Below are positions 1 through 6,280 of a DNA stretch of 64,000 nt, piece by piece (the stretch's first letter is position 1; every line of letters begins with the position of its first letter). The DNA comes from Perkinsus olseni. Its lineage: Eukaryota; Perkinsozoa; Perkinsida; Perkinsidae. The stretch lies in the NCBI GenBank assembly GCA_013115135.1, contig JABANP010000284.1, positions 1 to 64,000 of the forward strand, in the 5' to 3' direction. The notes under the pieces were generated by a model, which was given only the letters and a program-made list of their open reading frames with translations, was not told where the DNA came from and ran no database searches. A program made the position numbers and the translations under genes.

Positions 1-171
1 AACTCAACAAGATAACTTGAGCCAAGATGGCTACAGATACCTCTCCTCTAGTGCGCAGGACCTCTAAAGTACTCAAAGCACAGATACTAGATGATCGGCT
101 ATGAGAACAAAAGCGCACGCCCGAAAGCGCTCGCGTATAGAGCGACTCCTCTAAAGCATCTCATAATAATA
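1..171 (-). repeat. 3' LTR of element A (cut by window edge)
   Basis: Bases 1-171 equal 6110-6280 base for base. In element orientation the LTR begins TATTATTATGAGATG. It is preceded by the polypurine tract at 174-179. Its far end lies outside the window. Confidence 0.9.
16..34 (-). other. Spliced-leader-like sequence in the 3' LTR
   Basis: The minus strand reads GTAGCCATCTTGGCTCAAG, identical to the last 19 bases of the 22-nt trans-spliced leader as I remember it for Perkinsus (dinoflagellates differ at one or two positions). The three bases before it (TCT) match one more leader position. The second copy is at 6125-6143. Confidence 0.8.
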
Positions 172-173
172 TG

Positions 174-179
174 CCCCCC
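174..179 (-). promoter_or_regulatory. Polypurine tract of element A
   Basis: Six G residues on the minus strand, three bases from the 3' LTR start. This is the expected plus-strand primer position of an LTR retrotransposon. Confidence 0.7.
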
Positions 180-191
180 TAGGTGGCTTGC

Positions 192-3100
192 TCACAAGGA
201 AGCCACCTTCTCTATATCTCTCTGAGACAAATGGTTCGAAGAACCATCTAAATGTAAGGTCACAGTATCCTTAGGAGACACCGTAAGAGTGAGCGGCTTG
301 CACTCTGGATCTGAAATCACTCCGATATGATGAGAGCCTTCTGAAGAGATCCATAGTGGAAGCAACATCTGCTCGGCCTCGTCCAACTTATATTCTTGTA
401 CCAAGAAATAACCATCGTTAGTCCAAGATAATCTTTGACCATAACGGACCACACCATCAGCATCCTTCCAAGCGACAAAATAAGTTCTAGTAGGATTACG
501 AAGTACTCTACGCTTGGTTGGCTCGGCGAACTCGACAGGTTCGGGAGTGGAAGGCAACCTCTTCCTTCCATAATGAGTTGGAACCTCCTCTGCGCTCGAC
601 TGCTGCGTCACAGCAGGTCCTCTTTGAGCAATAGGTTCCTCGGCCTCTATAGAACCTTGAGTTCGTGAAGGATGACTGTCATCATCTTTAATGTGGTCCT
701 TGTGGTAGACTTGGACTTGACCATCGGAGAACTTGACCTCGACACATTCCTTCCCTAAGTGACGGGTTATTATCCCTGGAACCCACATTGCGTCAAGCTT
801 ATGGGAAGGAGGTTGGTAGACTAACACTTGGCGACCAACTCCGTAGACCGGACGAACAACTGGACCTACTGTAGCGGACCTACTCTTCTTCCATTCTTCT
901 CTCCAAATCTTAGTCATCTTCTCTCGGTTTCTATCCAATTTTTTCACAGCGTTGAGAATCATACCGCCACGAGTCTCATTCGGGTAGGATAGATACTCTT
1001 GGATAGAGTCTGTCGTAAGAGCCTGTTGAGATAAAGATGACATCATCATATTCTCGAATGGTAGCGCCGCATCAAATCCGAATACGATTTGGTGAGGAGT
1101 CAGTCCAGTAGTCTCGTCGACAGAACCGTTCATAGAAGCCTGAATGAATCTCAGTAGTTCAGGCCATGAACTAGGATTTCGTCCTTGTAGGGAACGGCGT
1201 AAACTTCTGGCCAAGTGCAAATGGGATACTTCGTAGAAGCCTCCCGAAGAAGGGTGACGGACTGGTAGGGTAAGGTGCTTACAAGAGTAGTATGCGCAAA
1301 GCGCATCAAAGGAAAGGGAGATAAGGTTACTCCCCAAATCCGTAATCACTGTGGATGGTGCTCTGTAGACCAGAAATACTTCACGCTCGAGTACTCTACA
1401 GATCGATGAAGTAGAGATATCGCTGAGCGGAAATAGAAGGCAATAACGACTTAGTAAATCCGTCACAGTGAGTATCCAACGAGCACCACTACTAGCACCA
1501 GCTTGAATAGCACCTGGTACCAAGGGCCCTACCAAGTCGCATCCAATAACCTCGAAAGGTGCCGAAGGGCACTTTAAATGGCTCTCATGTCGGAGCTTCT
1601 TTACGGGGGTGGTTACCAGGCAGGCAACACAAGACCGAACAATACTCTTAATAGACTTGCGCAGTGCGGGAGCCCAGAACAACTTCCGAACGTGACGATA
1701 AGTAGCATCAACTCCGACATGACCCCGTATATGATGATAATAGCTACCAAGTTCATTGAGCAGTGATGATACTGCTGGACGTGGTAGAACTATCTTCAGA
1801 GATTCATCCTCATCCCAAAGCTCTACCTTACAAAGGACACCGTTGAATAAAACACAGTGTTGTATGTAGTGGTAGAGAGAAGGGGGTAGATTCGCTTTGA
1901 ACGAACTAGGGTCCAAAGATGATTCTAAGACCTCCTTAGCTTCTCGGGCTTGTGGGTCGCGATCCTGCTGGTTGATCAAGAACCTTCGAATGACTTCTGA
2001 CGAGTCTGTCGGACCACGACCGCGCCAAGCTTGAAATGATTTATCAAGAATCATAAACTTACATAATGAGGGGATGCTATTAATAGTCGGGATCATCAAT
2101 GAATAAGGATAATGAAAATCGATAATATCCGATGCCATAGTGGGAATCTCACGAGTAGTCGACTTATCAACTTCACAGCAAATATTCGTAAGAACATTTG
2201 ACGGTGGAAGGTCCTCTGCGACACGTGAGAGAATATCTACTCTATTAATATAAAAAGAATTATGTGAATGATGAGAGAATGTTACATTCACTCCTAATAA
2301 TCTCAACTCTTCGACGGCTTCGTCAATCGATGATCTTAATCTCGATATTGACAATTGCTCTATGCCGTGGATCTTACGGGGTGACGAGCGCATGCGACGG
2401 ATGGAGACTAGACTATCATTGCAGACTTCGACGGATTTGAGCGAATTCCACCATTCACTCTGCATCTGATCGATTACTGCAATGAAGGCCATCAACATCC
2501 CGTAAAGCTCACGTCGGTTCGCATGCCAAGTACAACCGTAAGGGAAGAGCTTGCTCTCGGCGTAGACGGAAATCCAACCGGTAGATGCGAATCCAACTGA
2601 GCCTGAAAGCTGGCCAGCTGGGACCCATAACTCTATTCCATAACCGGTGTTGGACGCATCAACAACAATCTTCAGATCTCGGGCATTCTTAATGAGCGGC
2701 ACTGCCCCGTTGAGTTGCCGCCATATTACTTCAGCTGCTTGCAAATGCTTTCGGCATTGCTGCTCCTCCTTGGAGTCAATCTCATCATCCCAATTTCCGG
2801 TACAGCGGCCGGCTATCTGCCTCGCTATATCGCAGTGAGCTCGACACTGCGCCTCCCCAGCTGATCGTGTGATATCGAGATAGCGACCTGCAGCAGCAAA
2901 GATCCCTCTTCTAGTCGGCTGAAAATCTCTATTCTCAATCGGCAGTCTACGGACTGATAATACTCCTTTGGGGTCCCAGTTCCAGTCGGCACCCAGCCAA
3001 CGGCAGAACTGATCCTCTGATTGACCCCATAGGCTCCTCTTACTCTCTGGTAACTCGAATCCGACTTTGGAGAAGAGGTTGATCATATCTCGGTTCCACA

Positions 3101-6100
3101 TCGATCGAACTTCATCATTGGGCGATATGATGAGATAATCATCCATCACTCGTACCACTTCCACCATAGGAAATTTCGCTCTGAGAATGGCGAATAGGAT
3201 ATCGCCAATACTCTCTAGAGCATTGGGCCCTATTGAAAGGCCGAAGGCAAGGCGATTAGTCGCCTTGAGAGAGTTGGAGAGATTGTCACGGCCGCAATCA
3301 ATGTAAAGCACTTTATTGACAGCTATTCTATAAAATGCCTTACTCGCGTCCATCTGCTCTACAACAGCTTGGGGGTAGAGTTTTGCTCTCAACTCTTTGA
3401 CTGCCTTCTGAACTGATCGGCGACGACTTGAACATTTTGGGCTTCTGGAATTGTAGCCTCTGAAATCGAGGCATGGGCGGACTGGCGTAGTTTTCGAGTC
3501 GCTCAGAGAGCAAACTGGAAAACACGTCGCCCACTCTACCTTTGGATCTTGTCCTGGATGTAGATCAACTTCGCACCACCATTGCCGATCGAAATACATC
3601 TGTAGTTCGGCCGCCCACTTCTCTCTCTGCACCGGGGTCAACTTACGAATCAGACTATCTGGGCGCCAACTACCTCTGCTCTGCTGCTTCTCCTGCTGGT
3701 CAGTTGGATCGAGAGGCCAATCGACCAAGAAGCGATACTGCTGATTATGAGTATCCTTAACCACACAGCCATTAGGATCAGCGATCTCGCATAACTTCTT
3801 CAAAGATAACTGATAAGACTGCGCATCCGGTATTTCGAATAGTCCATGATGATAGATCCTCTGCAAAGCCGCGTCCAGAAAATTTTCATCTAAAGGTAGT
3901 CCATCCAACACTTTCACAATCTCAGCATCAAAGGGGTCCCGTGAGGTTGCCCTTGACAGATTCCTGGATGACTCCTTAGGCTCATTGTCGGCTTCTGTCT
4001 GTTCCGAAGGATTCACTCGATATTCATCTTCGTGAACAGTAGCCTCAACTTGAGCGAGCTCTATCACAGGTGCTGCAGCAATCTCTACAGCAGCAACGGT
4101 ATTCACAGACGAACTTTCATCACGGCTCAGAAGTTCTTGAAGCTGTTTGCGCAATAAAGCAGCAGCTTCTTCTTCCTCCGTATATATCAATCTTGCTCCT
4201 AAAATTCTTAATGCCGCACGACCCAAGATGATGGGATATGATAACTCACTTATCACCAACAGTGGCAGCATAACTTCGGATCGAGGCTCTCCGACGTAAC
4301 AGCGAATAACACATTCCTTTCGCACTATCCGAGCAGTCCCATTGGCACATGTTACGACCACTGGCTTGATTCTCAAAACCTTGACATCAGTCGATAATCG
4401 ATCCACTACTGACTCTCGAATCATGGCCACTGCCGCCCCTGTATCAATCAATGCTGCAAACTGCTCGCCCGCGATCGAAATCCGAACAGTATCGGGACTT
4501 GATAGTAGTGAAAGGGACAACGCATCCCTCTCAACTACTCCCTCCTCAGAACTTCCCGATAGATTCCGATCAACACAACTCAGGTCTACAGCACAGAACG
4601 GGGCTACAGAGCAAACAGCACCATCGACTCCCGAACGAAGCTCAGCGTTAGCAGCCGGAGTGGTTGCCTGACTTTGGAGACCAACCTCCACGAGATAGGC
4701 TGCAGCTGACTGCTTCGACGATGAGCTGTTCTCGGTTGCTCTCCCCGTCGTCTGTGCAACCTGACCTGAGGGAAGGGGGTTCGGGCAGACATATTGAAGA
4801 TGCCCGCTCTTGCCGCATCGCTTACACATCGCAGACTTAGCACCTAATCGGCAATCCTTCGTAGAATGTCCCAGACCACACACACCACAGCGGCGGTTCA
4901 TGCCGGCTGGACGTGCAGCCTGACAGAACTTCCAAGTATGACCCGGCTGCAGACATCGACTGCAGGTTCCGCTGAATCGTGCCGGGTTGATACCGCTCTT
5001 AGAGCTCTCACCTTTCGGACTCGAGGATTGCCCCTGCTTCAATCCTGCCGAATCTTTTCGCTTCTCCTTTCCCGCCGACTTTCTAAGCTGCCGACTTTCA
5101 AAATAAATAGCATTGCGACGCAGCTCTTCAAAGGACGCGGACTCGATGGATGGTCCCATGCTCTCCAACGAGTCTAATATACGTGTATGCATGCCCGCTC
5201 TGGCACGGATACACTTATCCAAATCACTGTGCGCCCTCCCCGTCATCGCTACTACCAATGCACTTTCCATCTCCACTCGGGCGAAAAAATCTTCAACTCG
5301 CTCCGAATCCAGCTGCTTCAATGCCTCCCATCGCTGCACCATCTCCGAAGACGTGCATGACTCCTTGAACCTCTTATCAAGATATTCCCAGAGACGCTGC
5401 ACAACAATCTCGGGCGTCTGCTGATCTCGCTTCAATCCCGTACGGACCATCATTTCCAATTCTGATTTAAGAGCGCCCGCGAAGTTTCTCATAATATAAT
5501 AAACCTCTGCCTTCCCTCTCAATCCATAAATCTCAATGGCATTCTGAATACGCTCCTTTATCAACCGATACGGGCAGCTATCGGTTGGGAAGCTCCAGGG
5601 GGCCGCTTCAACCAGATCCAATTTCAGCCATGAAATTGCAACATCACTCCCTTCATTCTTCGCTCGAGTTCCCGAACACAACTTCTCTCTACTCTCTGTA
5701 AACCCATCGATTGCTCTCTTCAAATCACTGGGACGCCCGCTATACCACCCCTTGCCCAATCTATACATCGCGGCACATTGCTTGGAAAGATACCGAGCTA
5801 AATGCTCGAACCAGATTTCATCGAGCCCTTCTAAAGCTGCGGCATCAAGCATCGATGCATAAACGATTTTAGCAACTTCTACGTCCCGATCTGGTCCCCC
5901 TTCTTGTAGTTCCCCCCTCCCGGAGACCCACCGTTGATACTTCCTTCTTATCTCTGATATCTCCTTCAAAAACTCTCTCGAAGTAGTGCATTCCAAATTA
6001 ATCTTTTGGACCTCCGCACCAACATCGACGGCAGGCAGACGGGCCGGGACGACGCCCTCGACTATTTCGGCGAATCCTGCATCGGGTACCATTGGTCCGG

Positions 6101-6227
6101 GATTGAGGGAACTCAACAAGATAACTTGAGCCAAGATGGCTACAGATACCTCTCCTCTAGTGCGCAGGACCTCTAAAGTACTCAAAGCACAGATACTAGA
6201 TGATCGGCTATGAGAACAAAAGCGCAC
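192..6227 (-). CDS. Gag-Pro-Pol polyprotein of element A
   Basis: A single 2011-residue ORF. Three Gag zinc knuckles lie near residues 420-480 (CSRCLQPGHTWKFC, a one-residue-short CGVCGLGHSTKDC, and CKRCGKSGHLQYVC). A retropepsin follows with ALIDTGA near 592, then a reverse transcriptase with RPCLDFRGYN, MDASKAFYRI and VMDDYL (catalytic DD near 1027). RNase H has VVDASNTGYG near 1184. Integrase has an HHCC finger (about 1497-1545) and D, D, E catalytic residues near 1564, 1627 and 1664, then a C-terminal tail. The ATG at 6227 lies in the LTR, so the true start may be a later Met, for example after the primer-binding site. No frameshift separates gag from pol, so Gag excess must come from another mechanism. 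Confidence 0.93.
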   Translation of the reverse strand: MRFCSHSRSSSICALSTLEVLRTRGEVSVAILAQVILLSSLNPGPMVPDAGFAEIVEGVVPARLPAVDVGAEVQKINLECTTSREFLKEISEIRRKYQRWVSGRGELQEGGPDRDVEVAKIVYASMLDAAALEGLDEIWFEHLARYLSKQCAAMYRLGKGWYSGRPSDLKRAIDGFTESREKLCSGTRAKNEGSDVAISWLKLDLVEAAPWSFPTDSCPYRLIKERIQNAIEIYGLRGKAEVYYIMRNFAGALKSELEMMVRTGLKRDQQTPEIVVQRLWEYLDKRFKESCTSSEMVQRWEALKQLDSERVEDFFARVEMESALVVAMTGRAHSDLDKCIRARAGMHTRILDSLESMGPSIESASFEELRRNAIYFESRQLRKSAGKEKRKDSAGLKQGQSSSPKGESSKSGINPARFSGTCSRCLQPGHTWKFCQAARPAGMNRRCGVCGLGHSTKDCRLGAKSAMCKRCGKSGHLQYVCPNPLPSGQVAQTTGRATENSSSSKQSAAAYLVEVGLQSQATTPAANAELRSGVDGAVCSVAPFCAVDLSCVDRNLSGSSEEGVVERDALSLSLLSSPDTVRISIAGEQFAALIDTGAAVAMIRESVVDRLSTDVKVLRIKPVVVTCANGTARIVRKECVIRCYVGEPRSEVMLPLLVISELSYPIILGRAALRILGARLIYTEEEEAAALLRKQLQELLSRDESSSVNTVAAVEIAAAPVIELAQVEATVHEDEYRVNPSEQTEADNEPKESSRNLSRATSRDPFDAEIVKVLDGLPLDENFLDAALQRIYHHGLFEIPDAQSYQLSLKKLCEIADPNGCVVKDTHNQQYRFLVDWPLDPTDQQEKQQSRGSWRPDSLIRKLTPVQREKWAAELQMYFDRQWWCEVDLHPGQDPKVEWATCFPVCSLSDSKTTPVRPCLDFRGYNSRSPKCSSRRRSVQKAVKELRAKLYPQAVVEQMDASKAFYRIAVNKVLYIDCGRDNLSNSLKATNRLAFGLSIGPNALESIGDILFAILRAKFPMVEVVRVMDDYLIISPNDEVRSMWNRDMINLFSKVGFELPESKRSLWGQSEDQFCRWLGADWNWDPKGVLSVRRLPIENRDFQPTRRGIFAAAGRYLDITRSAGEAQCRAHCDIARQIAGRCTGNWDDEIDSKEEQQCRKHLQAAEVIWRQLNGAVPLIKNARDLKIVVDASNTGYGIELWVPAGQLSGSVGFASTGWISVYAESKLFPYGCTWHANRRELYGMLMAFIAVIDQMQSEWWNSLKSVEVCNDSLVSIRRMRSSPRKIHGIEQLSISRLRSSIDEAVEELRLLGVNVTFSHHSHNSFYINRVDILSRVAEDLPPSNVLTNICCEVDKSTTREIPTMASDIIDFHYPYSLMIPTINSIPSLCKFMILDKSFQAWRGRGPTDSSEVIRRFLINQQDRDPQAREAKEVLESSLDPSSFKANLPPSLYHYIQHCVLFNGVLCKVELWDEDESLKIVLPRPAVSSLLNELGSYYHHIRGHVGVDATYRHVRKLFWAPALRKSIKSIVRSCVACLVTTPVKKLRHESHLKCPSAPFEVIGCDLVGPLVPGAIQAGASSGARWILTVTDLLSRYCLLFPLSDISTSSICRVLEREVFLVYRAPSTVITDLGSNLISLSFDALCAYYSCKHLTLPVRHPSSGGFYEVSHLHLARSLRRSLQGRNPSSWPELLRFIQASMNGSVDETTGLTPHQIVFGFDAALPFENMMMSSLSQQALTTDSIQEYLSYPNETRGGMILNAVKKLDRNREKMTKIWREEWKKSRSATVGPVVRPVYGVGRQVLVYQPPSHKLDAMWVPGIITRHLGKECVEVKFSDGQVQVYHKDHIKDDDSHPSRTQGSIEAEEPIAQRGPAVTQQSSAEEVPTHYGRKRLPSTPEPVEFAEPTKRRVLRNPTRTYFVAWKDADGVVRYGQRLSWTNDGYFLVQEYKLDEAEQMLLPLWISSEGSHHIGVISDPECKPLTLTVSPKDTVTLHLDGSSNHLSQRDIEKVASL
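6071..6091 (-). promoter_or_regulatory. Primer-binding site of element A
   Basis: The plus strand ends in ATCGGGTACCA preceded by CCTGC and part of a T-loop (CGAAT). This is exactly the 3' end geometry of a tRNA: 5-nt T-stem, 7-nt acceptor, discriminator A, CCA. The minus strand is therefore complementary to a tRNA 3' end starting TGG. Which tRNA is not identified. Confidence 0.7.
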
Positions 6228-6280
6228 GCCCGAAAGCGCTCGCGTATAGAGCGACTCCTCTAAAGCATCTCATAATAATA
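6092..6280 (-). repeat. 5' LTR of element A
   Basis: The visible match with the left copy covers 6110-6280. I extend it to about 6092 because the primer-binding site begins there and the window cuts the left copy, so the LTR is probably near 188 bp. The right flank (AAGGTGATGG from 6281) is host DNA. The polyprotein ORF begins inside this LTR and reads through the primer-binding site. Confidence 0.75.
6125..6143 (-). other. Spliced-leader-like sequence in the 5' LTR
   Basis: Second LTR copy of the 19-nt leader core. It lies near the primer-binding-site end of the LTR and is also in frame inside the long ORF. Confidence 0.8.

Follow-up and report, generated by a model that had tools for sequence, protein, structure and literature searches.

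Host spliced-leader cores inside the long terminal repeats of Ty3-like retrotransposons of Perkinsus olseni suggest a leader-derived R region

The stretch of DNA analysed here (the window) consists of the first 64,000 bases of contig C206 (JABANP010000284.1) of the Perkinsus olseni assembly GCA_013115135.1, a genome of 61.48 Mb in 968 contigs. At its start (positions 1-6280, minus strand) lies one Ty3-like retrotransposon, a copy of what we call family A, and each of its two long terminal repeats (LTRs) contains GTAGCCATCTTGGCTCAAG, the 19-nucleotide (nt) core of the host's trans-spliced leader (spliced leader, SL). In the window the core occurs at these two LTR sites only, even when up to three mismatches are allowed, and it lies on the same minus strand as the gag-pol frame, that is, in element sense. 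Trans-splicing replaces the 5' end of an RNA and should therefore break the terminal redundancy that LTR elements need, a loss for which an LTR that itself encodes the leader would directly compensate. On balance we lean towards the view that in these Ty3-like elements the host SL has become the 5' edge of the R region and that the element RNA begins with the SL.

The two host SL RNA genes that were read have the arrangement ACC-GTAGCCATCTTGGCTCAAG-GTAAATATC, and 33 SL RNA gene matches are exact over 32 nt. What the LTRs share with these genes is the 19-nt core and not the full 22-nt leader, as the three bases before the core are TCT in the window copy and ACC in the SL RNA genes read, and after the core the LTR copy continues with TTATCTTG whereas the SL RNA genes continue with GTAAATATCAGGT. 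According to the accessible part of a published study, leaders of Perkinsozoa have AAG at their end and ACCGTAGCCA at their start, where Parvilucifera shows a single difference (PMC9399869). A dinucleotide model of the window predicts 0.0006 occurrences of the 19-mer on both strands of the genome against 120 found, and chance was rejected as the source of the cores. Other identities for the LTR copy were also rejected: it is not an SL RNA gene, as no GT with an SL RNA intron follows it; it does not stem from an insertion into such a gene, since no SL intron is present and the SL stands in both LTRs; nor is it an SL-tagged retrogene, namely a host coding cDNA without LTRs, the SL sitting inside both LTRs of a gag-pol element.

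The 120 exact cores of the genome (49 followed by T and 71 by another base) include 34 SL RNA genes, recognized by the intron that follows; when up to three mismatches are allowed 39 such genes are listed, five of them altered in the core. Among the 86 remaining cores, two of which lie inside the SL gene array of contig C268, 72 could be placed in 11 repeat families by their own sequence or by LTR searches (A 15, B 9, C 13, D 2, E 12, F together with C26 3, G 4, H 7, I 2, K 3, L 2) and 14 stayed unplaced, in a sample that, being chosen by the exact core, favours young copies. Seven families (A, B, D, E, F, H and I) have at least one element with the SL in both of its LTRs. The distance from the SL end to the LTR end, covered for families A to G and I, rises from 31 nt in B through 32 in A, 33 in G, 42 in E, 61 in I, 67 in C (20 in the copy on C748) and 70 in D to 91 in F. 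In the pairs compared, the flanks of the core mostly do not align between families; scores above z 4 were reached downstream by the pairs A-B, F-G and H-L and upstream by the pairs C-H and F-C26. The proteins of families A and B are 41% identical. Family C looks like a collection of mostly solo LTRs, one copy of which (L032, with TGGCGACAG next) may be a 5' LTR. An earlier note on this window, made from its sequence alone, had placed the core in both LTRs in element sense and had held an exact 19-nt identity to be unlikely by chance. Both points hold, and the SL RNA genes of the same genome do not differ from the LTR copies over these 19 nt. The alternative offered there, a single past reverse transcription of a trans-spliced message, is weakened by the finding of the SL at a like place in 11 families, and the proposal that the leader serves as R reaches further than that note had stated.

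Three traces in the sequences bear on how the SL is used. The first consists of losses between the SL and a downstream AG. LTRs of family C have the SL, then 46-47 nt ending in GGGAG, then CGGAACACC or a variant of it, while the copy on C748 has the SL directly joined to CGGAACACC with its U3 unchanged; another copy (C648:1225) diverges from the family partway through the stretch between SL and CGGAACACC. In family H the locus on C35 reads SL-GTCTCAG-TGTACG, and both LTRs on C438 as well as the copy on C812 read SL-TGTACG without the heptamer, which is kept on C35, C423, C869 and C247. In both families what is lost runs from the SL end through a downstream AG, as would be expected if the SL had been trans-spliced to that AG and then used in strand transfer. 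Deletion between nearby CTCA repeats would predict other junctions than those seen, and cis-splicing is an unlikely source of the losses because the gap in H measures only 7 nt and no GT follows the SL in C.

The second trace is an AG at a fixed spacing. It lies at +6/+7 after 29 of the 86 SLs, against 6 expected, and the sequence before it is mostly pyrimidine-rich (heptamers GTCTCAG, GTTTTAG, ACCTTAG, ATCTTAG, ATCTCAG, GCTCAAG and GTGCGAG). Since sites within a family are not independent, the test was made by family and gave 7 of 18 (P 1.3e-4), or 5 of 16 under a stricter count (P 0.004); families A, B, C, D, I and L have no AG at +7.

The third trace is the variability of the base just 5' of the core (-1), a column that had been noticed before it was tested. 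In the nine copies of family B it is C in five, A in two, G in one and T in one, against 3 changes in the 29 other upstream columns (P 0.001 after correction for 30 columns), and in the 15 copies of family A with an exact core it is the sole variable column of 30 (T 11, C 4). The SL RNA gene sites listed without mismatch have C at this place.

From these traces a replication route can be proposed. The SL would most likely be joined by trans-splicing to an acceptor that lies within the LTR copy or shortly behind it, either the ...CTCAAG of the SL itself or the RYYYYAG after the core. Reverse transcription primed by a tRNA would then copy a short leader and after it the SL, and would stop roughly three bases from the cap. 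With the SL complement at its end, the strong-stop cDNA could pair with the SL that the RNA carries in its 3' LTR and be extended into U3, and each use of this route would rewrite the SL into both LTRs. Such a route would solve the problem that trans-splicing poses, i.e., an RNA whose 5' end has been replaced by a foreign sequence unmatched at the 3' end. The losses bounded by AG would be explained by trans-splicing, and an SL-headed RNA whose cDNA pairs with the SL of the 3' LTR appears to be the simplest account of all three traces. A fuller form of the proposal can be advanced only tentatively: a class of LTR elements would have taken over the host SL as its R, with the trans-spliced leader as 5' end, a match stored in the LTR and transfer rewriting the LTR from the SL RNA pool, and the limit of identity at 19 nt together with the four-letter base at -1 would be the imprint of a modified SL cap at which the reverse transcriptase (RT) stops or misreads. 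The idea of the earlier note that the LTR-encoded leader acts as R is partly supported, by the losses in C and H, the AG at +7 and the variable -1 base, while its strand transfer through the SL is a step that we infer.

Several observations weigh against this proposal. The boundary of the losses is ambiguous by two bases (AG), so that simple deletion is possible; the losses are few (one C copy and two H loci, perhaps sharing one event) and each could be an ordinary deletion, and a shortened junction in family A (C381:12067) does not follow an AG. Four of the six family H loci with an exact core keep the heptamer. Splicing at the +7 AG followed by SL-guided transfer would remove it, hence other routes must be common, and this persistence is the main gap in the proposal, as it would require frequent splicing at the AG of the SL itself, or frequent early transfer. 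The model also needs the 3' end of the RNA to lie past the SL, and 20-91 nt of LTR remain after it in the families measured. With respect to the -1 base, the change between C and T in family A could be CpG decay, and in two elements of family B the two LTRs of the same element differ at -1, a difference not expected from normal reverse transcription; with 94.7% and 97.3% identity, these LTR pairs have likely changed later or recombined. Extra conservation of the core within family A was not found (10 of 364 cells changed against 85 of 3275, a count in which two loci were entered twice), and one copy of that family (C381:5966) lacks 4 nt of the core. The two elements of family B just mentioned (L037 on C108 and L046 on C289) also show a short indel after the SL, and the two variants occupy opposite LTRs in the two elements.

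Nor is the SL general among LTR elements of this genome. RT searches with two queries, which score the best candidates only, gave 77 and 80 matches merging into 110 loci. Counting exact cores only, in a range reaching 6 kb upstream and 7 kb downstream, a sense SL accompanies 21 of the 110, usually 2.0-2.8 kb away (only 272 nt at the locus on C470), and an antisense one accompanies three. One of the 21 (C381:14890) probably sees the LTR of a neighbour. The binomial comparison was run on 20 against 3. The other 89 of the 110 loci have no exact sense SL in reach. The tRNA-Arg primer motif, allowing 0 or 1 mismatch, occurs at 19 sites, and the SL accompanies 12 of them; at the other seven the best match has 7-9 mismatches, about as in shuffled sequence, and seven more TGG-type sites (two mismatches) lack an exact core nearby, as judged by coordinates and not by reading. 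These findings rule out a universal SL rule for LTR elements of the genome and lead us to regard the SL as not essential. The earlier note had said that related elements lacking the leader would tell against its proposal, and such elements do exist in part, among same-primer sites as among RT loci. The seven SL-less primer sites themselves (L051-L057) have sequences of at least three kinds.

Another way to account for the SL in the LTR is a promoter that starts transcription exactly at the SL, as in an SL RNA gene, so that the SL would begin R as a mimicry of host mRNA without any trans-splicing. In favour of this, 8 of 15 representatives carry an AT-rich motif immediately before the SL, against a rate of 0.14 further upstream, and CTATAG/CTATATG stands at much the same position in the two SL RNA genes read; moreover ACC precedes the core in only 1 of 15 representatives (family L), so that the bases there are the element's own. 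The motif, however, was defined after looking and is absent from families A and B, and encoded initiation leaves unexplained both the losses ending at AG in C and H and the AG at +7. We consider this explanation rather improbable, although trans-splicing and initiation at the SL may both occur.

A similarly low probability is given to the SL copies being functionless relicts, inherited after occasional reverse transcription of trans-spliced element RNAs, as in SL-tagged retrogenes. Among copies found by LTR sequence the exact core is gone from 13 of 26 in family C, 12 of 24 in E and 3 of 10 in H, and family A shows no excess conservation of the core, as relicts would have it; yet 11 families hold intact cores though most of their flanks do not align, A and B keep the core at their level of protein divergence, and the AG at +7 also favours constraint. 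The same copies can be counted the other way: 13 of 26, 12 of 24 and 7 of 10 keep the exact core where identity to the query would predict 8.8, 9.8 and 2.1, an excess pointing to constraint that is only a hint, as the queries themselves hold the exact core. Far less probable still is an SL that serves in the LTR as a promoter or splice signal alone, for example as pyrimidines preceding the +7 acceptor, and plays no role in strand transfer. RYYYYAG does follow the core in several families, and the accessible part of one study proposes a promoter role for retroposed SLs in dinoflagellates (PMC6050394), but a splice signal needs no 19-nt match to the leader, the +7 AG is missing from families A, B, C, D, I and L, and the variability at -1 would be left unexplained.

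The features of the window element are collected in Table 1. The direct repeat of 171 nt is 100% identical between its two copies, as befits a pair of direct LTRs, and the primer-binding site bounds the 5' LTR at about position 6093; the matching tRNA-Arg(ACG) gene lies on contig C612 (L059). The frame encodes a zinc knuckle, an aspartic protease (residues 594-694), an RT (residues 964-1082; RVT_1 at 25 bits, below its cut-off of 29.6) and an integrase (residues 1509-1673) resembling the PFV and Ty3 chains, in the Ty3 order. With LTRs, a tRNA primer site and the protease-RT-integrase order all present, the element is classed from its sequence as Ty3/gypsy-type. Four homologous proteins were matched, the best at 36% identity and one from Perkinsus olseni at 33%. 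Five-base target duplications surround a family A copy on C621 (TTAGC) and a family B copy on C108 (GTTCA); none was made out round the family D copy on C249, and the 3' flank of the window copy is absent. The 64-kb window gave no tRNA or Rfam matches, and Pfam gave nothing under E 0.001 for the family D frames, with weak integrase and RNase H matches only.

Table 1. Features of the family A element at the start of the window
Feature	Position	Strand	Remarks
5' LTR, family A	6093..6280	-	about 188 nt; 6110-6280 is an exact repeat of 1-171
5' LTR, inner end			set from homologous copies with other flanks and the TTAGC duplication round the copy on C621
SL core in 5' LTR, proposed 5' edge of R	6125..6143	-	19 nt; identical to host SL RNA genes
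Base -1, just 5' of the core	6144..6144	-	T in the window copy; C in 4 of 15 family A copies
SL core end to LTR end (rest of R and U5)	6093..6124	-	32 nt; similar in families A and B
Primer-binding site	6071..6091	-	21 nt complementary to the 3' end of tRNA-Arg(ACG) with CCA
gag-pol, single frame	195..6092	-	2025 codons; first ATG at 6092 adjoins the primer-binding site
Polypurine tract before the 3' LTR	173..183	-	read by eye
SL core in 3' LTR	16..34	-	19 nt
3' LTR	1..171	-	incomplete, as contig C206 begins at window base 1

Some further loci deserve a mention. A family G copy on C602 (L085 plus L064, C602:690-1131) begins one base before the core and has no U3, which its 3' LTR possesses; its two SLs share the SL and the next 33 nt, U3 standing only at the 3' one, and the U3-less copy is possibly cDNA of an RNA that started at the SL. 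At C445:388584-388844 (L075) CCATCT comes after the SL, as though a second SL had been spliced at the GTAG inside an older one; the locus may be a gene retroposed twice. Two SL RNA genes (L005 on C16 and L008 on C41) lie near U4 snRNA genes, L008 also near U5 and U1 (Rfam). A search of IMG/VR for the same arrangement gave one contig, filed as viral, with SLs near an open reading frame (ORF) and no LTR element in the part read, and the candidate was rejected. This AT-rich contig (L088, IMGVR_UViG_3300045993_001077) has two exact dinoflagellate SLs on the minus strand (2746-2766 and 2893-2913), one of which ends 45 nt before an ORF of 254 amino acids (1936-2700) of other composition, as if a virus, giant-virus-like by impression only, had captured a host cDNA with its leader.

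If the proposal is true, a host RNA-processing system would be linked to retroelement replication, the LTRs would preserve individual trans-splicing choices as DNA fossils, and genome sequence could reveal what state the SL cap is in. No report of an SL inside LTRs was found in the literature searched by title and abstract start, a search outside which most subscription papers lie.

In Ty3/gypsy elements and retroviruses, R normally starts at the element's own transcription start. The elements described here share with them the LTR, primer-binding site, gag-pol, polypurine tract and LTR order and the tRNA primer, and differ in an R that seems to start with a host leader. The Echinococcus ta-TRIM solo LTRs are alike in that an LTR RNA meets a trans-splice acceptor; in their case LTR transcript and SL compete for a host acceptor, and the accessible part of the report mentions no SL in the LTR (PMC4558846). 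SL-tagged retrogenes of dinoflagellates and Perkinsus likewise hold a DNA copy of the SL obtained through reverse transcription of trans-spliced RNA but, in what is accessible of the two sources, they are host genes with relicts at the 5' end, with no LTRs, SL in a 3' repeat or strand transfer (PMC6050394, PMC12014239). Another counterpart is Cer1 of C. elegans, a Ty3/gypsy element in a host with SL trans-splicing that produces an SL1-bearing mRNA: as far as the accessible text of that study goes, this mRNA is a 2.4-kb spliced message, the 8-kb GAG and POL RNA is apparently not trans-spliced at that site and an LTR-encoded leader is not mentioned (PMC3315495), whereas in P. olseni the leader is written into the LTR itself.

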